A stretch of 64,000 nucleotides of DNA from NCBI RefSeq assembly GCF_038002345.1, contig NZ_JBBOCJ010000001.1:6696001-6760000 (forward strand), read 5' to 3'. The first letter of the stretch is position 1, and each line of letters begins with the position of its first letter. This document shows positions 33,011 to 55,690 of the stretch, in pieces. The position numbers and the translations under genes are program-made. This stretch comes from Paenibacillus sp. FSL M7-0420. GTDB taxonomy: Bacteria > Bacillota > Bacilli > Paenibacillales > Paenibacillaceae. The notes below the pieces were generated by a model. That model was given only the letters and a program-made list of their open reading frames with translations, did not search any database and was not told the origin of the DNA.

Positions 33011-33152
33011 CTATCATCACTAGCTTTCTGATTGAATTATTACGCAAGTGGAAACGGCTTTGCCGTCCTTTATTATAGCGCGAAGCATATAAATTCTTAT
33101 CTTTGCACAAAGTCATCCTGACGGATGAATAGGATTACCTTCACGCCAGTAC

Positions 33153-33385
33153 AATGTATGCTGTTTTTCACATACATTTGGTCCATACGCCTGCATGGTA
33201 GCCAATGTATGCTGTTTTTGGCATACATTTGGGCCATACTCCTTCACGCCAGCATAGTATATGCTGTTTTTCATATACATTCGGGCATGCACCTCCTATA
33301 TCAGCACAATGTATGCTGTTTTTCACATACATTTGGTCCATAAGACCCTGTGCCAGCTTATTGCATTCGGTTTTAGGAAGCTTGT
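33153..33385. repeat. 51-bp hairpin tandem repeat, family 1, array A (4 copies plus a degenerate one)
   Basis: Units begin at 33153, 33204, 33256 and 33308, with a worn copy near 33359. Each has TGTATG, a loop of the form CTGTTTTTCA, then CATACA, then a ~28-bp spacer that is also repeated. In the third unit the stem is TATATG/CATATA, a compensating double change that keeps pairing. It fills the gap between spoIIR (stop 33537) and ywlC (start 33010). No coding role is evident. The same family recurs at 43674 and 55485. Confidence 0.9.
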
Positions 33386-42465: not shown

Positions 42466-43611
42466 TCAGCGCCGGACCAGACGCGGCGTTCCGCGCAGTG
42501 CGTCAAGGTCCGGTGCACCGATGCCGAACATCACTGTCCGCAGCTCCAGCTCTACCTGGGCCAGCGCCTGATCCAGCGCCTCCTCGGAGCTGACGGCCGG
42601 ACCCAGCAGCCCCCGTCCGAAGCCTGCCAGATCAGCGCCAAGGGCCAGCGCCTTGGCGGCATCGACGCCGTGCTTCAGTCCGCCGCTGCCGATCAATGCC
42701 CCGCGCGGGGAGACCGCGCGGACCTCGGCAATGCACTCCGCCGTGGGAATCCCCCAGTCGGCGAAGGCCTCCGCAGCCGCACGCCGTACCGGATCAATGC
42801 TGCGGAACTTCTCCACCTGGCTCCACGAAGTGCCGCCTGCTCCGGCAACATCAATGAAGGCAGCACCCGCCTGATACAGCCGGGCAGCCGTATCGCCGTC
42901 AATCCCCCAGCCGACCTCCTTGATCCCCACTGGAATCTCAAGGCTCCGGCACAATGCCTCTATCCGCTGCAGCAGGGAACCGAAGCCGGTGTCACCCTCG
43001 GGCTGGAATACCTCCTGCAGCCCGTTCAGATGGAGAACCAGCCAGTCCGCTCCGGCAATCTCAACCGCCCGGCGGCATTCTTCTACCCCGAAGCCGTAAG
43101 CGAGCTGCACGGCTCCGACATTGGCAATGACCGGAATTGTGGGTGCATTGGCCCGCACATGGAAGGTAGCCGCCAGCTCCGCGCGTTCTACAGCCGCGCG
43201 CACCGAGCCGACGCCAAGCGCCCAGCCCCGGCGCTCCGCCGCTTCGGCCAGCCGCTCATTGATCTTCCCTGTAGCCGTGCTCCCCCCGGTCATGGAGCTG
43301 ATCAGCAGCGGGGTACGCAGCGTACGGCCTAAGAACTCAGTACCCAGTGAGATGGTATCGTAATCCAGCTCCGGCAGCGCGTTATGGCGGAACCGGTACT
43401 GCTCGAACCCGGTTGTAATTCCGCTGCCTGCCACATCTTCATTCAGGCAGAGCCGCACATGCTCAATCTTCCGTTCCCCGGTTCTGGAGTCGGGCAGCAG
43501 AGATTTATGTCCGGAAGGACCTGAGCCTGCTGTCTGCTGCCCTTGCTGGACATATGTGCCTAACTGCTCCACAGCGCTCTGCGGCACACCGTTTCGCGGC
43601 ATATCATTCAT
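42466..43611 (-). CDS. fni: Type 2 isopentenyl-diphosphate delta-isomerase
   Basis: An FMN-dependent enzyme that interconverts IPP and DMAPP. The ATG at 43611 (MNDMPRNGVPQ) has GGAGG 8 bases upstream and gives 381 aa; the frame opens 12 codons earlier. Typical features are RKIEHVRLCLNEDV, LISSMTGGSTATGKINERLA, PVIANVGAVQLAYGFG and the FMN-phosphate region IGSGGLKHGVDAAKALALGAD. It supplies precursors for the carotenoid operon on the other side of the repeat array at 43674-44312. Confidence 0.93.
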   Translation of the reverse strand: MNDMPRNGVPQSAVEQLGTYVQQGQQTAGSGPSGHKSLLPDSRTGERKIEHVRLCLNEDVAGSGITTGFEQYRFRHNALPELDYDTISLGTEFLGRTLRTPLLISSMTGGSTATGKINERLAEAAERRGWALGVGSVRAAVERAELAATFHVRANAPTIPVIANVGAVQLAYGFGVEECRRAVEIAGADWLVLHLNGLQEVFQPEGDTGFGSLLQRIEALCRSLEIPVGIKEVGWGIDGDTAARLYQAGAAFIDVAGAGGTSWSQVEKFRSIDPVRRAAAEAFADWGIPTAECIAEVRAVSPRGALIGSGGLKHGVDAAKALALGADLAGFGRGLLGPAVSSEEALDQALAQVELELRTVMFGIGAPDLDALRGTPRLVRR

Positions 43612-43673
43612 GCTGTCTTCCTCCGTTTCTGCTGCACTATTTCTCAAACTATAACAACATCACCCTACGGAGA

Positions 43674-44312
43674 ATGTATGCTGTTTTTCGCATACATTCG
43701 GCCATGTGCCTGTGTGCGAGCACAATGTATGCTGTTTTTCACATACATTCCGCCATACGCCCGCCTGCGAGCACAATGTATACTCTTTTCCACATACATT
43801 CCGCCATACGCCTGCCTGCGAGCACAATGAATACTGTTTTCCACATACATTCCGCCATATACCCGCCTGCGAGCACAATGTATACTGTTTTCCACATACA
43901 TTCCGCCATACGCCTGCCTGCGAGCACAATCTATGCTGTTTTCCACATACATTCCGCCATACGCCTGCCTGCGAGTACAATGAATACTGTTTTTCACATA
44001 CATTCCGCCATACGCCTGCCTGCGAGTACAATGAATACTGTTTTCCACATACATTCCGCCATATACCCGCCTGCGAGCACAATCTATACTGTTTTTCACA
44101 TACATTCGAGCCATAAGCCTACCTGCGAGCACAATGTATACTCTTTTTCACATACATTCGGCCATACGCCTGCCTGCGAGTACAATGAATACTGTTTTCC
44201 ACATACATTCGGCCATACGCCTGCCTGCGAGCACAATGTATGCTGTTTTCCACATACATTCGGCCATAAGCCTGCCTGCGAGCACAATCTATTCGGTTTT
44301 TAGCATACATTC
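43674..44312. repeat. 51-bp hairpin tandem repeat, family 1, array B (13 copies)
   Basis: Thirteen units start at 43674, 43724, 43775, 43826, 43877, 43928, 43979, 44030, 44081, 44133, 44184, 44235 and 44286. The period is 51 with single-base slips. The right half CACATACATTC is almost invariant; the left half varies (TGTATG, TGTATA, TGAATA, TCTATG, TCTATA). The last unit has TCTATTCGGTTTTTAGCATACA. Because 51 is a multiple of 3 and the unit lacks stops, several frames on both strands stay open with 17-residue repeats. I read these as by-products. It lies between the carotenoid operon end and fni. Confidence 0.95.
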
Positions 44313-44440: not shown

Positions 44441-45916
44441 TCATACATGGCTTGCAATATATTCGCCCACCAGCCTGCCCGACAAGGACACCACAGGGGT
44501 TCCCCCGCCTGGATGCGTGGTTCCGCCTACATACCACAGTCCCTTAACATCCCTGGAACGGTTGCCCGGGCGGGAGAAGGTCTGCTTCACCGTATTGGAG
44601 GATATCCCGTAAATGGCCCCCTGATGTGCCAGCGTATCGCGGGCGATATCCTGCGGTGTGTAACGCTCCAGCACATCTGCGGACGACAGCCCTCTCACAC
44701 CGTGACTCTCCAGTACAGAAATCACCCGCTCCCCGTACGCATCCCTCTCCTCACTCCAGTCACAGGCCGGGCTCAGATAAGGCGCATTAGCCAGAATGAA
44801 CAGGTTGCTGCCGCCCGCAGGCGCCATCTCAGGCTCGGAATAACCGGAGTGGCATACATACACTGTCGGTTGCTGCGGCGGACGCTTATGCTCGAAGATA
44901 TCCTTGAATTCCTGCTCATAGTTCTCCGGGAAAAATACCGTATGATGCAGCAGCTTATCATACGTGCGCGGCACGCCTGCCAGCGTTACCAGCCCGGACA
45001 GGGACGGTTCGTAAGCTTCAATCCTGCGGTCCGTCATTCCCGGACGAACTGCTTCAGGAAGCAGCATCCGGTTGATGCTCAGGACATCGCCACCGGCAAT
45101 CACAGTCTTGGCCGGGTAGAAGCCTTGCGCCGTATCCACACCTTCCACCGCACCGGATACTACGGAAATTCCTGTTACCTCCGTGCCTGTAATCAACCGT
45201 ACGCCCAAATTCCGGGCGAGTGCAGACAGACCGCTGATTAATTCATAGGTGCCGCCCTTCACACCGTATACGCCCTCCTGAATCTCCAGATGACCAAGCA
45301 TGGCGAAGATGGAGGGGGAACGATACGGCGATGATCCCACATAGGTGGCATAGCGGCCAAGCATAGCCAGGGTATGCGGGTGACTGAAGTAGCGGAGCAG
45401 CAAGCCATGCAGGCTGAGAAAAGGCCTTACGCGCACCAGGTCCCGCACAAGCGAAGGGGACAGCTTATCCCTCCAGGACAGCAGCAGCCTGTTCAGGAAC
45501 TGCTTCTCGCTAAGCTGATACAGCCGTGAGGCTTCCGCCAGAAACTCCGGGAACCGCGCAGCATCTGCCGGGCTGTAGGAGGCCATCTGCTCCTGCATTC
45601 GCCCGGTATCCCTTGAGAAATCGACAACCTTGCCGTCTGCGAAGATATTGCGGGTACGCGGCTCCAGCTCATAGAGCTGGACATAATCCTCCATGCGGGC
45701 TCCCGCAAGCTCATAGAGCGAGCGGAAGACATGAGGCATCGTAATTGTACTTGGGCCGCGGTCGAAGGTGTAACCCCCTGCCTGCACACGCTGCAGCTTG
45801 CCGCCCGGATGCTGCTGACGTTCCAGCACAGTGACTTCCCAGCCTTCAGCGGCAAGGGTGACCGCACAGGACAGCCCACCGAATCCGGCGCCTATGATCA
45901 CTGCCTTCGGTTTCAT
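44441..45916 (-). CDS. CrtI/CrtN-type carotenoid desaturase or oxygenase, third copy
   Basis: A 491-aa FAD flavoprotein. The N-terminal dinucleotide fold is IIGAGFGGLSCAVTLAAEGWEV with ERQQHPGGKLQ, then FDRGPSTITMP. The C-terminal signature is GLWYVGGTTHPGGGTPVVSLSGRL. It is the last gene of the carotenoid operon and overlaps the glycosyltransferase gene by 4 bases (ATGA). Compared with the other two family members in the operon it has its own N-terminal region, so it probably acts on a different intermediate. A 3,4-desaturation or terminal oxidation is possible. The exact reaction cannot be read from the sequence. Confidence 0.88.
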   Translation of the reverse strand: MKPKAVIIGAGFGGLSCAVTLAAEGWEVTVLERQQHPGGKLQRVQAGGYTFDRGPSTITMPHVFRSLYELAGARMEDYVQLYELEPRTRNIFADGKVVDFSRDTGRMQEQMASYSPADAARFPEFLAEASRLYQLSEKQFLNRLLLSWRDKLSPSLVRDLVRVRPFLSLHGLLLRYFSHPHTLAMLGRYATYVGSSPYRSPSIFAMLGHLEIQEGVYGVKGGTYELISGLSALARNLGVRLITGTEVTGISVVSGAVEGVDTAQGFYPAKTVIAGGDVLSINRMLLPEAVRPGMTDRRIEAYEPSLSGLVTLAGVPRTYDKLLHHTVFFPENYEQEFKDIFEHKRPPQQPTVYVCHSGYSEPEMAPAGGSNLFILANAPYLSPACDWSEERDAYGERVISVLESHGVRGLSSADVLERYTPQDIARDTLAHQGAIYGISSNTVKQTFSRPGNRSRDVKGLWYVGGTTHPGGGTPVVSLSGRLVGEYIASHV

Positions 45917-47064
45917 TCATAACGCCTTCCTTTCCATTCATAGCCTCCGCGTGTGCGGCTTCCGCGCCAGGACGCCACAGCAATCAAGGACAGGCAGAGC
46001 ATGCTCGCCGGGAGAAGGAGACAGAACCAGAAAGGCTGCCGTCCGGCAGCATCACTAGTCCGTTTCACGGCCAGACCCGCAAGTAGCGCAGCAGCAGGCC
46101 AGAGCGCCGCGCTTAGCTGTCCGCTTAGGGCATAGTACAGAACGGCGGCGGTGGGCACCGCATACAGCGACAGATATGCAATAAGCACACCCAGCAGCAG
46201 CAACGGGCTGCGGCCGATACCGGCATAGATATTCTTCCGGTAGCCGTTCCATACTTGCCGGGCATTGTGGTACATCCGCATGAACACCTGCTCCGTAACA
46301 TCCATGAGCGTCACCGTTCCGCCCGACCGCTTCACGGCGCGGGCCAGCGCCATGTCATCCACCAGCTCGCTGCGGATGGCCTCATGCCCGCCGCAGCTGT
46401 CGTAACTGTCCCGGTGAATCAGGATGAAGCCTCCATGCGCCGCAACAAAGCGCGGATCTCTGGAGCCGCGGACCAGCGGAATGGGCAGGTGGCAGATGAT
46501 GGTGAAGACCATCAGGGGAACAACCAGCCGCTCCAGCCAGGTTCCGGTCATCTGCCGGGGGAAGCCGGTAATCATGCCGCCGCCCGCAGCGGAGGCAGCA
46601 GAAAGCGCCGTCTGAAGCGCCCCGTGCTGAAGACGGACATCTGCGTCCAGGAACAGCAGCCAGTCTCCGCTTGCCGCTTCTGCAAGCTGAGCGCAGGCAT
46701 GGGACTTGCCCAGCCAGCCCTCCGGCAGCACTCTTCCCTTCAGAACGCGTACACCACTGCCCGCTGCTGCGGCAATAGCCCCCGTTCCGTCAGTGGATGA
46801 ATCATCCAGTACAATAATCTCCATCCCGATTATGCCGGTGCTTGAGGCCAGCACAGAGGAGAGGCAGTCCCCAATATTATCCGCTTCATCCCGGGCGGGG
46901 ATCAGTACCGATAAGCTCAAGGCCCGTGAGGATGCCGTTGCTTTTGCTGACAGCGCCTGCGATCCTGGTGCTGCCCCCAGCTTGGGGAGCTGCGCTGCAT
47001 TCCATATTGCGAACAATAGCTGGAGCAGCACAATACCGGTTACAGCCTGAAAGAATACGTTCAT
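45913..47064 (-). CDS. Family 2 glycosyltransferase of carotenoid type (CrtQ-like)
   Basis: A 383-aa membrane-associated GT-A enzyme. N-terminal membrane segment (about 5-20), then the nucleotide-sugar fold LSVLIPARDEADNIGDCLSS, the DSSTDGT motif, FLDADVRLQHGAL (metal-binding D-x-D) and a Q-x-x-R-W-like region YHNARQVWNGYRKN. Four hydrophobic segments end the protein. In staphyloxanthin-type pathways such enzymes glucosylate a carotenoid carboxylate or hydroxyl. It overlaps genes on both sides by 4 bases. Confidence 0.85.
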   Translation of the reverse strand: MNVFFQAVTGIVLLQLLFAIWNAAQLPKLGAAPGSQALSAKATASSRALSLSVLIPARDEADNIGDCLSSVLASSTGIIGMEIIVLDDSSTDGTGAIAAAAGSGVRVLKGRVLPEGWLGKSHACAQLAEAASGDWLLFLDADVRLQHGALQTALSAASAAGGGMITGFPRQMTGTWLERLVVPLMVFTIICHLPIPLVRGSRDPRFVAAHGGFILIHRDSYDSCGGHEAIRSELVDDMALARAVKRSGGTVTLMDVTEQVFMRMYHNARQVWNGYRKNIYAGIGRSPLLLLGVLIAYLSLYAVPTAAVLYYALSGQLSAALWPAAALLAGLAVKRTSDAAGRQPFWFCLLLPASMLCLSLIAVASWRGSRTRGGYEWKGRRYE

Positions 47065-47801
47065 CCGCTCCCACCGCCCGGCCGCAGCAGGTCAAGCCAT
47101 TCATTGGTAGATCTCCCCCGGCGGAGCAGCGGCCTGAATTCATCCGGCATATAGCCTTGATGATTAAGTACTCTGCTGCGGTGTGACTCCAGTTGTCCGC
47201 TAAGAACAGTCTCCAGCTCACGGGCTACGCTTGAGCGGTCCATCTCCGCCCAAGGGAGCAGCAGCGGCGCACCGGCCAGCAGCGTAGCTTCCGGCTTCGT
47301 ATGCCGGAACAGGCCGTGGTATAGCGTCACTGGGACTACGGCCGCCCCCGGACTGAGCCGCAGCGCCAGGGCCGCCCCTTCCTTCAGGCTCAGCGGCCGG
47401 TGCTCCAGCGGCCGGATTTCGCCTTCGGGATACATCCAGACACTCTCACCCTTTTGCAGCAGTCCGGCTGTATACCGCAGAGAAGCCCGCGCATCTCCGG
47501 CATTGCCGGGGTTAATGGAATAGGCGCCGAGCTTCCTGAAGAAGGCATACTTCCGTAGCTGCTCCTCTTCCATCATGAAATAATGCCGCTTCCCCGGAAG
47601 CTTCCCTGCGGCGTGATAGGCCAGCAGGCCGTCCCACCACGAGCTGTGATTCATAAGGTAGAGAATCCCCCGCCCGGCAGCGGCAGCGGGCTGAAGCTCT
47701 CCGCTGACTCCTATGAAGTGGAAATGCCTGCGCAGCAGATAGAAGGAATTATAACGGTAGAATAACCAGTCAAACCTTCCCGATGGAACGGCTTCCAGCA
47801 T
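47061..47801 (-). CDS. PlsC-type acyltransferase, probably for carotenoid glycoside
   Basis: About 246 aa from the ATG at 47801 (MLEAVPSGRFDWLF; GGGAG 8 bases upstream); the frame extends 10 codons further back without a ribosome site. The acyltransferase motifs are NHSSWWDG (H-x4-D) and YPEGEIRPLEHRPLSLKEGAA. In a carotenoid operon this would esterify the sugar with a fatty acid. It overlaps the CruF-like gene by about 32 bases and the glycosyltransferase gene by 4. Confidence 0.85.
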   Translation of the reverse strand: MLEAVPSGRFDWLFYRYNSFYLLRRHFHFIGVSGELQPAAAAGRGILYLMNHSSWWDGLLAYHAAGKLPGKRHYFMMEEEQLRKYAFFRKLGAYSINPGNAGDARASLRYTAGLLQKGESVWMYPEGEIRPLEHRPLSLKEGAALALRLSPGAAVVPVTLYHGLFRHTKPEATLLAGAPLLLPWAEMDRSSVARELETVLSGQLESHRSRVLNHQGYMPDEFRPLLRRGRSTNEWLDLLRPGGGSG

Positions 47802-48555
47802 AGCGTAGACTCCCTTCGGCCAAAGCGGCACCTGCCCCCGCGATCACCGCGCAGGCAGGCAATCCCTCTGTCAGGCTGATCAGGCCGAACAGGATCAGGA
47901 TCGCCTGATACAGGCGGGTACCCCGGCGGGCAGCCAGGCGGGTGAACGGCACAGCCGGGAGCAGCATGGACAAGGCAGCGCCTGCAATCAGCCAGCCGCC
48001 GAAATTGCTCCAGGGCACCTGATAGAAGCCCCCGCCGCCCTCCCAATGCCAGAAGTTCCTGGCATGGGCAACAGGATCGAGCACCAGATCCATCAGGACC
48101 GTCCAAAAGCCGACCTGCACGGCCCGCAGCAGCAGGAGCCTGAGGCCGCGCTGTCCGAAATCATGGCTGATCAGCACGGCATTGCACACAACCGCAATCC
48201 AGGCGAAGCCCAGTGTAACCGGCACACCAAATAATAAAGGCCCGAGAATAGTAGAATAATTATAATCCCCAAACAACCGGCCGGAATGCACGCCTACCCA
48301 TTCCACCGCCATTCCGCCTAACCAGATAAGAGCCGCAGCATACCAGAATCGCTTGGTCATCCGGCCTCCCGAAGAATTGACTGACCAGTCAGACATGAAG
48401 GGTTTGAACTGCCCCTTGATTAATAAGTCCAGCCCATAGGCACCATAGAATACGAGAAATAATCCGTTAGAGAATTTCAGGCTGTCCGGAATTCCGAACA
48501 CGATCAGCAGCAGCGCACCGATGGTATACCAGATCCAAAAAAGGGTTCGGACCAT
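47770..48555 (-). CDS. CruF-like carotenoid biosynthesis membrane protein
   Basis: A 261-aa protein with about seven hydrophobic segments. The central part, HSGRLFGDYNYSTILGPLLFGVPVTLGFAWI followed by LDPVAHARNFWHWEGGGGFYQVPWSNFGGW, is typical of the CruF/DUF422 family. Members are carotenoid 1',2'-hydratases. Within this operon it would hydrate the psi end of a linear carotenoid, creating the hydroxyl for the glycosyltransferase. It starts directly after crtM stops. Confidence 0.82.
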   Translation of the reverse strand: MVRTLFWIWYTIGALLLIVFGIPDSLKFSNGLFLVFYGAYGLDLLIKGQFKPFMSDWSVNSSGGRMTKRFWYAAALIWLGGMAVEWVGVHSGRLFGDYNYSTILGPLLFGVPVTLGFAWIAVVCNAVLISHDFGQRGLRLLLLRAVQVGFWTVLMDLVLDPVAHARNFWHWEGGGGFYQVPWSNFGGWLIAGAALSMLLPAVPFTRLAARRGTRLYQAILILFGLISLTEGLPACAVIAGAGAALAEGSLRYAGSRSIGKV

Positions 48556-48557
48556 CG

Positions 48558-49415
48558 TTAGACCACCGCAGTTCTTGCACCGGCATACCGCACAACCGTA
48601 CGCTGGAACAGCTGGAGCTTGGCTTCATCGGTGACATAGGATCTTTTGCGGAAAACATCATACCCGTCTGCCTCCACAGCATCCAGAATAGCAGCATAGA
48701 AGGATGCGGCAAGTTCAATGGCAAGGCCGCTCTCCAAAGGATACGTATGCACATGCTCCAGCCCTCGCCGGAACCAGTCCAACGCTTCTGTCCGCAGCTC
48801 CTGGATAACGGCAGTAAAACGGTGATTGACCTCCCCGTTCTCCAGCTCCCGCTGGCTGTAGCCATGTCCCTCCATCACCTCAAGCGGCACATATCTGCGT
48901 CCTCTCCGGAGATCCTCACCCACATCGCGGATGATATTGACCAGTTGCATTCCTATCCCCAGCGCAATCCCCGATGTCCGTGCCGCTTCACTCTGATCAT
49001 CCCGCAGAACAGGCAGCAGCATCTCCCCTACCGTTCCCGCTACAAGATAACAGTAATCCTTAAGCTGCTCCATCGTGTCATAGGCTGTGAAGGTAAGATC
49101 TCTAAGCTGTCCCTCCATTTGCAAAAGAAACGGGTCACGCTGAAGCTGCGGGAAGCTGCTGAACAGCCAGCGCAGCGCCGGCCAGATGAAATGCCCGTCC
49201 GCCTGCTCCAGATTCATGAAATGCTCCCGCAGCTCATGAATGCTGTACGGCGCGCCTTCCGGCTCATCCACACTATCGTCTATAATCCGGCAAAAGGCAT
49301 AAATCACATGCACCGCCTCACGCCTGGGACTTGGCAGAACATCAAACGCCTTATGGAACGAAGTGGACCCTTTCTTCATCAGTTCCTCACATTGCTGCAG
49401 TATCCTTTCATCCAT
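48558..49415 (-). CDS. crtM: Phytoene/squalene synthase family protein, probably dehydrosqualene synthase CrtM
   Basis: A 285-aa head-to-head prenyl synthase. The first Asp-rich motif DDSVD is at residues 46-50 and the second, DVGED, at 164-168, followed by LRRGRRYVPLE. The companion genes are CrtN-type, which suggests C30 dehydrosqualene (4,4'-diapophytoene) rather than C40 phytoene. Chain length cannot be fixed by eye. It overlaps the preceding gene by 8 bases. Confidence 0.88.
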   Translation of the reverse strand: MDERILQQCEELMKKGSTSFHKAFDVLPSPRREAVHVIYAFCRIIDDSVDEPEGAPYSIHELREHFMNLEQADGHFIWPALRWLFSSFPQLQRDPFLLQMEGQLRDLTFTAYDTMEQLKDYCYLVAGTVGEMLLPVLRDDQSEAARTSGIALGIGMQLVNIIRDVGEDLRRGRRYVPLEVMEGHGYSQRELENGEVNHRFTAVIQELRTEALDWFRRGLEHVHTYPLESGLAIELAASFYAAILDAVEADGYDVFRKRSYVTDEAKLQLFQRTVVRYAGARTAVV

Positions 49416-50928
49416 GTACGCTCATCTCCTTTATTATTTCCTGAACGGCAAGCTTCGCTCCCTGCATCACGATCGGCACACCGCCGCCCGGATGGACGGA
49501 AGCACCTGCGGCATACAACCCCTTGAGCGGATAAGGCTTCGGCTGGGGCCGGAATACCCCCGACTGGCTCAGCAGCGGTGCAATACCGAAGCTGCCCCCG
49601 CCATACATTCCTTCCTGCTGCGCATCGGCAGGTGTTCTCAGCCTGCGCCAGATCACACTCGCGGCAAGCCCGGGGAAGCCCCGCTTCTCGGCATCTGCCA
49701 TGACTTTGTCGGCTAGTGCTCCGGCTATTTCCTCCCAGTTCTTATCCGGTGCCGCCGGGACGGGAACAAGGAAATACAGCACGCTCTGTCCAGGAGGAGC
49801 TGCACTGTCGTCCAGCGCTACCGGATTAAATACATAATAAGATGAATCCTGGGGGATTTGTCCCCGGTCAAACAGCTCATGTAAGCTGCTGTTCAGACTG
49901 TCCGGCAGGAAGAACTGGTGCACCAGCGACTCCGGCCACTGCTTATCCGTGGCTGCATAGATCAGCAGACAGCCCGAGGAGGGCTTCCAGCTTCCGCGTT
50001 TTATGGCCTTGGCCGATATGTGTCTGTCCTTATCCGCTGTCACACCCAGCGCCCGTTCCTGCTTGAATACACCAGGCGGCAGCAATTGCTCCACATTCGG
50101 GAAATCTCCATTGTACAGAACGGCATCATAAGGAATCGACTGCCCCTGAACAACAACTCCGTAGCAGCGGCTTCCTTCAACAAGCAAGGATTCCACCTCA
50201 GCGCCCGTATGAATCTGTACCCCGCGGTCTTCCAGCTCCCGGGCCATGATCTGCGGCAGCGTCCCGTATCCGCCCTTCAGCATCCAGATGCCGAAGGCAT
50301 GCTCGGCATAAGGAAGCATGGTGTAGATACCGGGTGTGCGGAAGGGTGCTCCTCCAATATAGAGGCTCTGCAGGGAGAACGCATCCTTAAGCTCCTCGTT
50401 GCGGAAATACTGCCCGATAGCAGAGCGCAGATTCTGGTAAGCACGCAGGCGGACCATCAGCGACAGGTTAGCCGGACTGAAGAATTCCCGCCCGCTGGCA
50501 TACCCCCGCTCCAGGAACGACGTCCGCCCCTGCGGATACAGCACTGACATGTCCTTCATGAACCGGGTGAAGCCCTTGCCCTCTCCGGGATAAAACCGGT
50601 CAATCTCCTCCGCCTGCGCCGACGCATCTGCGAATTTGGTCAGCACCCGCCCGCTTCTGAAGTGAACCCGGTAGAGCGGATCACAGCGCAGCAGCTCCAG
50701 GCTGGATCGCGGAAGGCCGCCTTCCTCCAGAATAGCGAGAAGCATCTCCGGCAGCAGCACGATGGTAGGGCCGCGGTCAATCCGGTAGCCGTCCTGCTCT
50801 TCAAAGGCCACTCGCCCGCCCGCTTGGGGTGCCCGTTCATAGATCACCACCTCATGTCCCTGACGGGTAAGCAGCAGCGCTGCCGTCAGCCCGCCGATTC
50901 CGCTGCCTACGATGGCTATGCGGCTCAT
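49408..50928 (-). CDS. CrtN/CrtP-type carotenoid desaturase or oxygenase, second copy
   Basis: A 506-aa FAD enzyme: AIVGSGIGGLTAALLLTRQGHEV at the N-terminus, then GGRVAFEEQDGYRIDRGPTIV, and the C-terminal signature GLYAAGASVHPGGGVPIVMQGAKLA. It overlaps the first crtN gene by 4 bases and crtM by 8. The paired arrangement crtN-crtNb-crtM suggests one desaturase and one terminal oxygenase (CrtNb/CrtP type), but which is which is inference. Confidence 0.88.
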   Translation of the reverse strand: MSRIAIVGSGIGGLTAALLLTRQGHEVVIYERAPQAGGRVAFEEQDGYRIDRGPTIVLLPEMLLAILEEGGLPRSSLELLRCDPLYRVHFRSGRVLTKFADASAQAEEIDRFYPGEGKGFTRFMKDMSVLYPQGRTSFLERGYASGREFFSPANLSLMVRLRAYQNLRSAIGQYFRNEELKDAFSLQSLYIGGAPFRTPGIYTMLPYAEHAFGIWMLKGGYGTLPQIMARELEDRGVQIHTGAEVESLLVEGSRCYGVVVQGQSIPYDAVLYNGDFPNVEQLLPPGVFKQERALGVTADKDRHISAKAIKRGSWKPSSGCLLIYAATDKQWPESLVHQFFLPDSLNSSLHELFDRGQIPQDSSYYVFNPVALDDSAAPPGQSVLYFLVPVPAAPDKNWEEIAGALADKVMADAEKRGFPGLAASVIWRRLRTPADAQQEGMYGGGSFGIAPLLSQSGVFRPQPKPYPLKGLYAAGASVHPGGGVPIVMQGAKLAVQEIIKEMSVHG

Positions 50929-52481
50929 AACGGAACCCCCGCACCTGCGCCGGGCGCACCCGCCTGTACGTTGAACCGCCTCCGCACAGCCTGGTCATGC
51001 TCCCGCAGCAGCCGTGCGCTGATCTTGGCCGACTCGAAGATCGTCGGCAGGCCGCTGCCCGGATGGGTTCCCCCGCCGACCAGCCAGATGCCGCGTACCT
51101 CCTCGAAGGTATTATGCGGCCGCAGATGCATCATCTGCCCAAGATTATGGGCCAGATTGAAGGTGGCCCCGTTATATACATTCTGCTGGTTCTGCCAGTC
51201 CAGCGGGGAGAAGAACAGGCTCTCTTCCACGCGTCCGGCGATTCCCGCCAGCTGCGGAATTTGCTCCAGCCGCTCCATCATCCAGTTCTCTACCTCCTCA
51301 CGCTCCTGCTCCCAGTTAATATCGGCACTCAGATTAGGCACCGGCATCAGCACGTAGAGCGAGGACTTACCGGGAGGCGCCAGTGTCTTATCGATGACTG
51401 ACGGATTATGGATATAGATAGAAGCATCCTCTGACAGCACGCCCAGCTCCGTGATCTCTCTGACATTACGCCGGTAATCGTCCGCGAAATGAACCGAATG
51501 ATGACTGAGGTCCACCTCTCCATCCACACCGAGGTAGAGCATGGCGGTGGAGCAGGAATATCTTTTGCGGGCAATCTTGGCAGGAGTGTATTTCTTCAGA
51601 AGCCCGGGCTCGAACAGCTGTGTCATCGCAGAGCCAAAGTCTGCTCCAATCACAATATAATCCACATCCACCTTCTCCCCGTTCTCCAGCAGCAAGCCTG
51701 CGGCCTGCCCGTCCTTGACGATAATGCGGTTCACTCCGCTTGTGGTATGCACCCGCCCGCCATGCTCCTGGATGACCTGAGCCATAGCCTGAAGCACACG
51801 GTTAATGCCGCCAGACGGATGGTACAGGCCGTAACGGTGCTCCATGTACGACAGAATCGTGAAGGTGCCCGGACATTCCCAAGGCGACATCCCAAGATAC
51901 TTGGCCTGGAACGAGAACGAGAACCGCAGCCGTTCATCATCGAAATAACGGGACAGCCGGTTATACACGGTGTCTGTAGCGTTCAGCTTGGGCAGCGCGT
52001 GGAACACATCTCTTTTAACATAATCCCCTAACGATTGGAACGGACGCTGCAGCAGCGGAATCACCCGCTCCAGCTTGTCGGCTTCTTCTGCCATGAACCG
52101 GCGGTAGCCGCTGCCGTTGCCGGGGAACAGCCGCTCAATCTCCTCAGCCGTCTGATCCTGGTTCGTGGAGGGCGTAAATACGGTATCTCCAAAATGCAGT
52201 GAATACAGCGGATCAAGCGCTGTAAGCGAGACATAGTCATGCACCGAACGCCCTGCCAGAGTGAACAGCTCCTCCAGCAAATGCGGCATCATCAAGAAGG
52301 TGGCTCCCCGGTCAAAACGGTAGTCTCCCAGCTTCAGTTCGCCTGATCTTCCGCCAACTTCTGCCTGTTGTTCATAGAGATCGACTTCATATCCTTCGGC
52401 GGCAAGCAGCATGGCGGCGGCCAGCCCGCCCGGTCCTGCGCCAATTACTGCGACTTTTGCGGTATCTGTGGTTCGGATCAA
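50925..52481 (-). CDS. crtN: Diapophytoene desaturase CrtN (first gene of the carotenoid operon)
   Basis: A 518-aa FAD enzyme from the TTG at 52481, which has GGAGG 7 bases upstream; an in-frame TTG at 52502 has no such site. The motif VAVIGAGPGGLAAAMLL is at about residues 9-25, then FDRGATFLMMP, and C-terminal GIWLVGGGTHPGSGLPTIFESAKIS. It introduces conjugated double bases, giving yellow to red C30 pigments. The promoter with CarH-like sites lies within 70 bases upstream, giving a very short leader. Confidence 0.9.
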   Translation of the reverse strand: MIRTTDTAKVAVIGAGPGGLAAAMLLAAEGYEVDLYEQQAEVGGRSGELKLGDYRFDRGATFLMMPHLLEELFTLAGRSVHDYVSLTALDPLYSLHFGDTVFTPSTNQDQTAEEIERLFPGNGSGYRRFMAEEADKLERVIPLLQRPFQSLGDYVKRDVFHALPKLNATDTVYNRLSRYFDDERLRFSFSFQAKYLGMSPWECPGTFTILSYMEHRYGLYHPSGGINRVLQAMAQVIQEHGGRVHTTSGVNRIIVKDGQAAGLLLENGEKVDVDYIVIGADFGSAMTQLFEPGLLKKYTPAKIARKRYSCSTAMLYLGVDGEVDLSHHSVHFADDYRRNVREITELGVLSEDASIYIHNPSVIDKTLAPPGKSSLYVLMPVPNLSADINWEQEREEVENWMMERLEQIPQLAGIAGRVEESLFFSPLDWQNQQNVYNGATFNLAHNLGQMMHLRPHNTFEEVRGIWLVGGGTHPGSGLPTIFESAKISARLLREHDQAVRRRFNVQAGAPGAGAGVPL

Positions 52482-52504
52482 GCAACGTCCTCCTTCGTTC
52501 AAAC

Positions 52505-52546
52505 ATTATACAAAAACTATACAATAGTGATACAAATATCATACAT
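52505..52546 (-). promoter_or_regulatory. Carotenoid operon promoter overlapping four 11-bp operator repeats
   Basis: On the plus strand TACA starts at 52509, 52520, 52531 and 52542, exactly 11 bp apart, each within ATACA. On the minus strand a perfect TATAAT (-10 box) lies at 52505-52510, inside the first repeat; no good -35 box is visible. CarH/LitR regulators bind 11-bp direct repeats containing ACA that overlap promoters, so this is a strong candidate operator for the regulator encoded next door. Confidence 0.82.
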
Positions 52547-52615
52547 ACTTTGCCGGGCTATGTAAATATCATCTGCCAGACTTCCAGCAATTTGGTTGCT
52601 AGACTTGTCCACAGC

Positions 52616-52656
52616 AAAAGAACCGGCCAGCCCTGTACAAGGGTTCTGACCGGTTC
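52616..52656 (-). terminator. Terminator after the carH-like gene
   Basis: On the minus strand GAACCGG-t-CAG-aa-CCCT pairs with AGGG-c-TG-g-CCGGTTC, followed by four T. It separates the regulator transcript from the carotenoid operon. Confidence 0.75.
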
Positions 52657-52693
52657 CTATGGAATCTACTTCAATTAAAATCCGCTATATTTG

Positions 52694-53623
52694 CTACGCT
52701 CTATGCCGGGTTGTGGCATATTCCTGATCGAACCAGGCTTGCCACTTCTCCGGCGGCTCCGCCATCACATAGGTGGCGTTGGTATCCTGGAGGCTGATTG
52801 CCTCATAAGCTTTACCGCCCGCGATGAGCTGCATCTCCGGGTACAAGCTGCCGAGCCGTTCAAGCAGCTCCTCCGTATAGGGGACCAGCGAACCATTCGT
52901 AACGGATAGGCAGACAGCTCCGATCCGTTCTTGCTTCTCCAGCAGCTCCATCACACCGTCCTCGGGGGTATTGGCCCCCAGATAGATCACTTCAACCCCG
53001 TTTCTGCGCAGGAACAGCGAGAACAGCAGCAGGCCGACCTGGTGATGCTCTCCTGCCGGGCAGAAGGCAAGCACCTTGTGCAGATGGGCATACACCGGGA
53101 ACACGTGAAAGAACTGGGACAGCCGGTTCGAGATCATATGTGTCATATAATGCTCCTGGGCCACGGTTGCCGTCCCTTGCTCCCAGGCATCGCCAACCTT
53201 CACCAGAACAGGCACCAGCACCTGATGGACCATCGCCTCATAGCCGTACAGGGAGAACCCGAAATCGATCAGGGCATCCGCCCGCTCGCCCTGGATGTCG
53301 AGCAGCGCTGCATAGATCTGCTGCCTCATTTTGTCCAAGGCATCCTTAGGGTCACCGCCCGCAACGGACATACGCTCATCCAGGTCCTTCTGCTTATGCT
53401 GCTTCAGCATCCGCACGGCATGTGAGATACTGATGCCCTGTTTATCGGTCTGTTCCTTCAACCAGCGAAGGTCCTCAATATTCTCTTGGTTGTACAGCCT
53501 ATAGCCGGATTCGGTACGTTCCGGGACGACAGCCTGATACCGGTTCTCCCACGCCCGCAGAGTGACAGAGGGAATATCGAGCATTTCGACGACCTGTTTG
53601 ATGGAATACACGATGGATCTCAC
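52694..53623 (-). CDS. CarH/LitR-type MerR regulator with B12-binding domain
   Basis: A 309-aa regulator. The MerR helix-turn-helix covers about residues 5-75 (VTLRAWENRYQAVVPERTESGYRLY). A helical bundle follows with W147-x9-E157-H158, the CarH/LitR motif that holds adenosylcobalamin, then the Rossmann-type B12 domain with E192-x-H194-x2-G197 (His194 as the probable cobalt ligand). In known members the dark tetramer with B12 represses carotenoid genes and light breaks it. The start is a GTG. It lies upstream of the carotenoid operon on the same strand with a terminator between, and has TACA repeats in its own promoter. Distantly related MerR-B12 proteins without light sensing are the alternative. 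Confidence 0.88.
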   Translation of the reverse strand: MRSIVYSIKQVVEMLDIPSVTLRAWENRYQAVVPERTESGYRLYNQENIEDLRWLKEQTDKQGISISHAVRMLKQHKQKDLDERMSVAGGDPKDALDKMRQQIYAALLDIQGERADALIDFGFSLYGYEAMVHQVLVPVLVKVGDAWEQGTATVAQEHYMTHMISNRLSQFFHVFPVYAHLHKVLAFCPAGEHHQVGLLLFSLFLRRNGVEVIYLGANTPEDGVMELLEKQERIGAVCLSVTNGSLVPYTEELLERLGSLYPEMQLIAGGKAYEAISLQDTNATYVMAEPPEKWQAWFDQEYATTRHRA

Positions 53624-53635
53624 TGCCTTCCTGTT

Positions 53636-53693
53636 TACACTGAATACATTTGAAGATTCAAACCTTATACAAATTATTTACACTCATTATACA
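53636..53693. promoter_or_regulatory. Second set of 11-bp TACA repeats, between carH and the PLD gene
   Basis: TACA begins at 53668, 53679 and 53690 (exact 11-bp steps), with further TACA at 53645 and 53636 out of that register. On the minus strand a TATAAT is embedded (within TTGTATAATGAG). This suggests that the regulator controls its own gene, and possibly the divergent phospholipase-D-like gene at 53879. Confidence 0.65.
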
Positions 53694-53878
53694 ATTGCAT
53701 CTGTGTTATGTCACCAGAACTTGTATGATGCAGCTCCATGGTACGGTGCGGATGAAATGGAGCGCTTATTGTAACACTAGATTTTTCAGGGATTTTGCCA
53801 TCAGCTGCTTCACTTCTCCTTAGCGGGCGTTATAGGTATTTACAATGCTGGCCCCGCAGCAGACCCAGGAGGATTATT

Positions 53879-55426
53879 ATGAATCAAGGCCGCCGTCCCG
53901 TCACACCCGAACAGTTACATATCACGCTGGCTTCCGGCGCCATTACGCCATCCCGCCACAAGCGCCAATGGCAGTTCTTCCTGCGCCGCCGCTCCAGACT
54001 CCTGATGGCCCTGACCCTTCTTCTCCTCTGGCTGGCCGGGGTGATGATCTATCAGACCCATAAGCCGCTGCCGCCCGGACTTTCTGCGGAGAGTCCTGCG
54101 TATAAGGTGAATACGGTCGCCTTCTGGCATGATCTGACTTACCAGGACAACAGCGGGAAGCAGGCAAGGGAAGAACAGATTCTGCCCCGAATCCTGCAGA
54201 TTATTGAAGAGTCCAGACAGTTCCTCGTGATCGATCTGTTCCTGTTCAATAACTATACCCATACAGACCAGCAGTTCCCCGCTGTCAGCAGACAGCTTAC
54301 CGATAAGCTGCTTGCCCAGAAAGCCGCCCATCCCGCGATGGAGATCGTCTTCATCACCGATGAGGTGAATACGAATTACGGCTCTGCGCCTAATGCCCTC
54401 CTGGAAGAGATGAGAGCCGCCGGTATTAAGATCATCATGACGGATGTAGACGGTCTGCGGGACTCGACTCCTGCCTATTCTGCGGTCTGGCGCGCCTTCA
54501 TCCAGTGGTTCGGGCAATCCGGCACCGGCTGGATTCCGAATCTGATGGCCAGCGGAGGACCGGACATTACCGCACGTTCCTACCTGAAGCTGCTCAATGT
54601 CAAAGCGAACCACCGCAAGGTCGTGCTCAGCGAGAACACTGCCCTGATCTCCTCCGGCAATGTACATGATGCCAGTGCTTATCATTCCAACATTGCCCTG
54701 GAGGTGCAGGGTCCAATCCAGGAGGATATTCTGCGGAGTGAGCAGGCGGCGGCTAATCTCTCGGGAGCCGGTCCCTTGCTGAGCAAGCCTCCTGAATTCA
54801 AACCGCCCGCTGCCGTATCCGGGGAACCTTCGCTTGAAGTCCGCTATCTGACCGAAGGCAAGGTATACAAATATGCCCTGGATGGGATCGCTGCGGCAGG
54901 ACCCGGGGATGTCATCTGGATGGGGATGTTCTATCTGGCGGATGACGGAATTATTGATGCCCTGCTTGCCGCAGATGCCCGCGGCGCCCAGGTGAGGCTG
55001 CTGCTTGATCCCAACCAGAATGCCTTCGGACGGGACAAAATCGGCATCCCCAACCGTCCCGTTGCCATGGACCTGGACCGCCGCTCTCAAGGAAATATTC
55101 TGATCCGCTGGTACAATACAGGCGAGGAGCAGTATCACAGCAAGCTGATGTTCATTGCCAAGGCGTCAGGCGACTCTACCCTGCTGGGCGGATCAACGAA
55201 CTTCACAGCCCGTAATCTGGACGACTATAACCTGGAGAATGACCTCTATGTATCCGTTCCGCGGGAACAGCCGCTGTATGCGGAGGTGGAGGGCTACTTC
55301 AACCGGCTATGGAACAACGAGGGCGCTGAATACAGCCTGCCGCTCACGGAATATCAGAGTGAGGTCACCTGGTTGAAATACATCCTCTACCGGATACAGA
55401 CCCGGCTTGGCTTCACTACCTTCTGA
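53879..55426 (+). CDS. Phospholipase-D-like (HKD) protein
   Basis: A 515-aa protein from the ATG at 53879, with AGGAGG 6 bases upstream; the frame opens at 53795 without a ribosome site. One membrane segment (about 41-58) anchors it, with the rest probably outside. Two PLD-type motifs are seen: NHRKVVLSENTALISSGN and YHSKLMFIAK...GGSTNFTARN (H-x-K and N). It resembles cardiolipin synthases only in these motifs, so the substrate may be a phospholipid or something else. It is divergent from the carH-like gene and convergent with cls. Confidence 0.82.
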   Translation: MNQGRRPVTPEQLHITLASGAITPSRHKRQWQFFLRRRSRLLMALTLLLLWLAGVMIYQTHKPLPPGLSAESPAYKVNTVAFWHDLTYQDNSGKQAREEQILPRILQIIEESRQFLVIDLFLFNNYTHTDQQFPAVSRQLTDKLLAQKAAHPAMEIVFITDEVNTNYGSAPNALLEEMRAAGIKIIMTDVDGLRDSTPAYSAVWRAFIQWFGQSGTGWIPNLMASGGPDITARSYLKLLNVKANHRKVVLSENTALISSGNVHDASAYHSNIALEVQGPIQEDILRSEQAAANLSGAGPLLSKPPEFKPPAAVSGEPSLEVRYLTEGKVYKYALDGIAAAGPGDVIWMGMFYLADDGIIDALLAADARGAQVRLLLDPNQNAFGRDKIGIPNRPVAMDLDRRSQGNILIRWYNTGEEQYHSKLMFIAKASGDSTLLGGSTNFTARNLDDYNLENDLYVSVPREQPLYAEVEGYFNRLWNNEGAEYSLPLTEYQSEVTWLKYILYRIQTRLGFTTF

Positions 55427-55484
55427 ATGGGAAAAGAACACATTTCACCCTAAACGGGTGAATAAAATACCTGCGCGCAAACAC

Positions 55485-55690
55485 AGTGTATGCTGTTTTT
55501 GGCATACATTCGGCCATGCGCCTGCATGCGAGCACAATGTATGCTGTTTTTCACATACATTCGGGCCATGCGCCTGCATGCGAGCACAATGTATGTTGTT
55601 TTTCACATACATTCGGGCCATGAACCTGCATGCGAGCACAATGTATGCTGTTTTTCGCATACATTCGGGCCACACGCCTGCGCGCCACTT
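55485..55690. repeat. 51-bp hairpin tandem repeat, family 1, array C (4 copies)
   Basis: Units start at 55485, 55536, 55588 and 55640. Each has TGTATG (TGTATGT in the third), loop CTGTTTTT, CATACA, then a spacer with a second small hairpin CATGC-gcct-GCATG. They lie between two convergent genes, where no promoter is needed. This is the cleanest version of family 1. Confidence 0.92.

Follow-up and report, generated by a model that had tools for sequence, protein, structure and literature searches.

What keeps the carotenoid genes of Paenibacillus sp. FSL M7-0420 in check, and does light lift that control? The window that we analysed, a stretch of 64,000 nucleotides from this genome, carries a MerR-type regulatory gene followed by a pigment operon, and an earlier note had proposed that the regulator is a B12-bound tetramer which light breaks apart, turning the operon on. 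Our analysis leads to much the same answer: the protein is very likely a photoreceptor and repressor of the CarH/LitR type that depends on B12, whose tetramers would repress both the crt operon and its own gene, carH, in the dark and let go of them in the light. In this Paenibacillus a pigment operon of seven genes would thus be under a probable B12 light switch, and to the earlier note we add a putative control of the regulator by itself.

A CarH-type regulator with complete cobalamin motifs

The regulatory gene carH (52694-53623, minus strand, GTG start) was assigned by domain search, PDB sequence match and structure model. Its product has a MerR-type winged HTH at residues 6-75 (PF13411, MerR_1, 58.3 bits), a four-helix B12-binding domain at residues 100-168 (PF02607, B12-binding_2, 37.9 bits) and a B12-binding Rossmann domain at residues 183-274 (PF02310, 44.5 bits), all over the Pfam cut-offs. 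By sequence it matched Thermus thermophilus CarH in the PDB (5c8d, E 6.5e-28), and with its structure model (mean pLDDT 86.7, pTM 0.70, built on 26 sequences) Foldseek returned full-length chains of T. thermophilus CarH at ranks 1-12, the DNA-bound 5c8e at rank 1. The model lay at an rmsd of about 3.3-3.8 from B12-domain chains but of 7.4-21.4 from most full-length CarH chains, so it does not reproduce the domain arrangement. The best-scoring NCBIfam model was the equivalog NF052513 (TransRegCarH), yet its 147 bits fall below the cut-off of 400, and we therefore assign the protein to the CarH/LitR family on its domains, its motifs and its operator, but not to that equivalog. It is the single CarH match at E <= 1e-60 in its genome.

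The two residue patterns described in the earlier note, W147-x9-E157-H158 and E192-x-H194-x2-G197, are both present in the translation, and alignment finds them complete (W147, E157, H158; E192, H194, G197). We presume that the first acts at the adenosyl group and that the second contains the lower axial histidine. Among 36 aligned rows, which include a Thermus row and repeated copies of some genomes, Wx9EH is found in 35 and ExHx2G in 34. One locus (L019; G046 C10:70625-72417) has two adjacent CarH-like matches, the first with Gln for the axial His and the second interrupted by one TAG; the carH matches of G108 (L139/L189) and G121 (L190) have one in-frame TGA each, and the crtN1 match of G121 has one TAA.

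The resemblance to T. thermophilus CarH/LitR (5c8d, 5c8e, 5c8f, 3whp) covers domain order, both cobalamin motifs and fold, with 28-34% identity among the matches listed. At the position of Thermus His132 (Thermus numbering), which we take to be part of the light-state ligand pair, the protein has Glu148, so that a light-state ligand pair of the same type cannot form as it does in Thermus. Glutamate stands there in 32 of the 36 rows and histidine in the Thermus row alone. A second difference falls at R176/D201, presumably a subunit-contact pair of Thermus CarH, where the window protein has His193 and Asn218.

The glutamate could be taken to mean that the CarH fold and operator are kept while the signal is B12 status or redox, another form of cobalamin being made effective through Glu148 so that the protein reports B12 supply. 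The genome has three cobalamin riboswitches over the cut-off, which point to B12-responsive genes and would suit such a role. We nevertheless consider it unlikely, since both cobalamin motifs are intact and the predicted target is a carotenoid operon, a usual output of light protection. Moreover, dark- and light-state structures titled for the Thermus H132A variant are listed in the PDB, so that His132 is not needed for a B12-bound fold. Together with an adenosyltransferase (PF01923, 205.6 bits) encoded in the same genome, the riboswitches suggest that the cell can probably make or salvage adenosylcobalamin, in agreement with the reading of the protein as a light-responsive repressor.

In Myxococcus xanthus, CarA and CarH repress carotenoid genes, and CarA acts without B12 beside the B12-dependent CarH. 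Both share the MerR-type DNA-binding domain with the window protein, and 2jml, an M. xanthus entry for that DNA-binding domain, was matched by the PDB sequence search. Unlike M. xanthus with its pair, the genome studied here has one match with its B12 motifs intact, and an action of the CarA type, independent of B12, appears less likely for it on the strength of those motifs.

The carotenoid operon

Downstream of carH and in the same direction, on the minus strand, lies a seven-gene operon. It begins with crtN1 of the phytoene desaturase family (TIGR02734; 50925-52481), whose mechanical open reading frame starts at 52502 and whose likely start, as read from the sequence, is a TTG at 52481 behind GGAGG. 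There follow, by family or domain matches, crtN2 of the phytoene desaturase family (49408-50928), a squalene/phytoene synthase gene (crtM/crtB; 48558-49415), a gene for a CruF-like membrane protein of the Caroten_synth family (47770-48555), a PlsC-type acyltransferase gene (47061-47831), a gene for a family 2 glycosyltransferase (45913-47064) and, as the last gene, crtN3, again of the phytoene desaturase family (44441-45916). The order carH-crtN1-crtN2-crtM-cruF-plsC-GT-crtN3 recurs in 14 of the 16 Paenibacillus loci with names, crtN3 being truncated by the end of the locus; loci L097 and L100 gave matches for carH to crtM only. In Thermus, too, a carotenoid gene adjoins carH, namely that of a phytoene/squalene synthase, but the neighbour there is divergent, whereas here the operon follows in the same direction.

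Between carH and crtN1 there is a hairpin with a short T run (52615-52661, minus strand), recognised as an inverted repeat and possibly the terminator of carH. The RNA fold of 52591-52695 reaches -34.9 kcal/mol, and the consensus terminator scan made no call at the hairpin. Since so strong a hairpin separates the two genes, the carH and crt transcripts may be separate.

Repeat arrays over two promoters

The TACA motif, which reads TGTA on the coding strand, occurs four times before crtN1, at 52509, 52520, 52531 and 52542, with the exact 11-bp spacing that had been claimed for it, and the four copies form a putative crt operator on the minus strand (52509-52545). That such a register is unlikely by chance also proved right, as the gap between carH and crtN1 (52503-52693), shuffled 20,000 times with its dinucleotides preserved, did not once produce four in a row. 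When spacings from 5 to 30 were tried in the same gap, runs of more than two motifs occurred at spacing 11 alone. The earlier note had further placed the -10 box of the crt promoter within the repeats, and this is borne out, the better-supported box being TATGAT (52543-52538), which lies in the gene-distal repeat. With TTTACA (52566-52561) as -35 and a 17-bp spacer it makes up the predicted crt promoter (52538-52566, minus strand). A TATAAT-like sequence in the proximal repeat region (52505-52510) was also considered as the crt -10, and was set aside on its absence from the consensus promoter scan, which gave TTTACA-17-TATGAT.

A second array, absent from the earlier note, overlaps the promoter of carH itself. 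Three TACA motifs at 53668, 53679 and 53690, again at exactly 11 bp, form a putative auto-operator (53668-53693, minus strand); a run of three was reached by 2 of 20,000 shuffles of 53624-53870. The carH promoter (53686-53714, minus strand) is predicted from GTGACA (53714-53709), a 17-bp spacer and TATAAT (53691-53686), the -10 once more lying in the distal repeat. Over 52480-53900 the consensus scan gave four promoter-like sites against a shuffle mean of 1.3. Two of these sites fall on the coding strand, and they are the promoters just described, GTGACA-17-TATAAT for carH and TTTACA-17-TATGAT for crt. Both promoters thus have a common design in which the -10 is in the gene-distal repeat and the other repeats extend toward the gene, so that a bound protein would cover the -10 and the start region, as judged from the predicted promoters.

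The design suggests how the switch could work. In the dark, tetramers carrying adenosylcobalamin would sit on the 11-bp TACA repeats over the -10 and start region of both promoters, on four repeats at crt and three at carH, and would block RNA polymerase. Light would break the cobalt-carbon bond, the tetramer would fall apart and leave the DNA, and the pigment operon and carH would then be transcribed. The regulator would thus probably use vitamin B12 as its light sensor, with the pigment genes off in the dark. We infer DNA binding, B12 binding, oligomeric state and light response as steps of this scheme; the identity of the ligand, the tetramer and the direction of the light effect are carried over from the CarH family. 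The dark-repressor reading of the earlier note is supported by the family, the ligand motifs, the operator spacing, the promoter overlap, the carotenoid linkage, the conservation described below and the adenosyltransferase. Its argument that four repeats specially suit a tetramer we do not retain, because repeat number varies: there are three at the carH promoter, three to five at crt in relatives, and three in the Thermus carH region against four at crt here.

In T. thermophilus HB27, TACA-11-GACA-11-TACA is found upstream of carH, with motif and spacing as in the window. The CarH/LitR protein of Bacillus (Priestia) megaterium has four-repeat operators, one repeat more than Thermus, that overlap the -35 or the -10; it regulates carotenoid genes and has spx as a further target. 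The anatomy described here would then be close to the one known from a Gram-positive relative. B. megaterium would differ by its further target spx, as in the present genome no further exact triple repeat was found in promoters.

The arrays within the genome and across the genus

The exact pattern TACA-N7-TACA-N7-TACA has four matches in the 7.67 Mb genome and none in the reversed-pattern control. Two of them overlap at the crt promoter, a third precedes carH, and the fourth, at 7602387, falls within an open reading frame for a collagen-like protein (L006); beyond these four the exact search found no triple repeat in the genome. Allowing one mismatch gave 29 matches, a number that includes the four exact ones and overlapping neighbours, against 13 in the control. 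A profile based on sequence alone, to which the sites in the window themselves had contributed, was scored on 150 of 2802 first-look candidates and placed only the carH and crt promoters at E < 0.001; four further matches ranged from E 0.34, the next best, to 2.6. From the exact, one-mismatch and profile searches we claim no third CarH target in this genome. Across nine relatives that carry carH, 40 matches to the exact triple were found against 7 in the reversed control, so that single matches away from carH and crt in these genomes may be due to chance. A further array of two overlapping exact triples, that is four repeats, was seen in one of these nine (G018 C11:17864-17900; L049/L110), between two genes that by eye resemble those of a GGDEF/EAL protein and of a FAD oxidoreductase.

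We then compared 100 genomes of the genus, the present one included, taking carH at E <= 1e-60 and crtN1 at E <= 1e-100. At these thresholds carH is found in 45 and crtN1 in 41, and all 41 genomes with crtN1 have carH (G069 and G107, with 28% matches to a different desaturase, are excluded from the 41). Exact 11-bp runs of at least three motifs precede carH in 39 of its 45 genomes and crtN1 in 38 of its 41 (five repeats in 7 genomes, four in 25 and three in 6), although the compared genomes are related and these counts are not independent; named loci and numbered genomes are in part the same (for instance L096 is G108 and L099 is G018) and were not summed. Spacings of 9, 10, 12 or 13 bp, or the opposite strand, gave no run of three upstream of carH or crtN1. 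The runs are retained while the flanking sequence varies, and TTTAC[AT]-17-TATNAT is read at the place of the crt promoter in 33 of the 41 crtN1 genomes, a further reason to prefer it over the proximal TATAAT-like sequence. Loss of the repeats in relatives that keep the regulator, which would have spoken against the proposed switch, is thus rare on the crtN1 side.

Five of the six genomes without a run at carH (G085, G094, G108, G109 and G110) have the outer motifs 22 bp apart and one base changed in the middle motif, and the sixth is the distant G097, with a CarH homologue of 40%. One of the three lacking a run at crtN1, G108, has a degraded array over the same promoter. Four genomes have carH without crtN1 at the threshold, namely G010, G069, G107 and G097. 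The 16 kb around carH in G010 gave no match to any crt gene; there carH is followed by fni and retains its array; in G069 and G107 crtN3 is the sole crt gene matched near carH.

Relocated carotenoid operons and a palindrome at their promoters

The other two genomes without a run at crtN1 are G062 and G079, in which the crt genes lie away from carH, about 2 Mb from it in G062 and on another contig in G079, and carH adjoins fni. The direct-repeat run is absent there and a palindrome of related half-sites is found instead: both crt promoters have TTTRCAAACMTTATAC-N7-GTATAATGTTTGTAAA, which in G079 amounts to two 11-bp half-sites facing two inverted ones, and a common 39-bp palindrome of CarH-like half-sites lies over the promoter (L180 1934-1972 in G062, L182 1932-1970 in G079).

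Finding such similar half-sites as a palindrome at a distance from carH might mean that the arrays are the sites of another regulator and that carH is a mere neighbour. By eye, no MerR-type gene was noticed near the relocated crt genes among the frames of about 10-12 kb upstream in G062 and G079 and of 8 kb downstream in G062; some kb away lie frames that by eye look like an ArsR protein, a PadR protein and a response regulator. We regard this explanation as very improbable, because an array is also present at carH's own promoter, even in G010, where crtN1 was not found, because crtN1 was never found without carH in the 100 genomes, and because motif and spacing equal those of the Thermus carH region. 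That the repeats are chance A+T-rich promoter sequence has a negligible probability: TATA-like promoter sequence does resemble TGTATAAT, but the genome-wide counts, the shuffles (0 and 2 of 20,000 reaching the observed runs) and the control spacings in relatives, which never reach three while the 11-bp runs persist amid varying flanks, lead us to reject it.

With the CarH-type switch as the preferred reading, the observation holds, the locus is well conserved, and a known type of system explains it well. What goes beyond an ordinary example of that type is the glutamate at the His132 position and the palindrome at the relocated crt genes. The putative operators come in two architectures: three to five direct repeats where crt and carH are neighbours and, in the two genomes with a relocated crt, a 39-bp palindrome of two plus two half-sites. 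Paenibacillus CarH could tentatively be seen as a variant photoreceptor, with another light-state cobalt chemistry (through Glu148, water or another residue) and more than one operator architecture; we find this conceivable but lean against it. Were it true, natural variation would offer a way to test both the operator grammar of the family and what the second histidine does. The genus in any case provides material for comparing DNA recognition by CarH and its light-state cobalt ligands, comprising crt arrays of three to five repeats, Glu148, missing or relocated crt genes and the palindromes.

Other features of the locus

Beyond the crt operon and a repeat array, the window has a gene at 42466-43647 that we read as fni, which we take to be a type 2 isopentenyl diphosphate isomerase (Pfam gave FMN_dh for the G010 copy). 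In G010 (L108), G062 (L181) and G079 (L183) fni stands directly after carH.

Tandem arrays with a unit of 51-52 bp are present in the window at 33137-33342, 43673-44312 and 55482-55681, and each unit has a 26-bp dyad, AATGTATGCTGTTTTTC[A/G]CATACATT. Genome-wide the dyad has 161 matches at no more than one mismatch, with 0 in the control. The 63 matches listed without a mismatch divide by strand: below 3.4 Mb the minus strand has 36 of 38, and above 3.7 Mb the plus strand has 22 of 25. Among these matches, then, the dyad seems to be oriented according to the half of the chromosome in which it lies.
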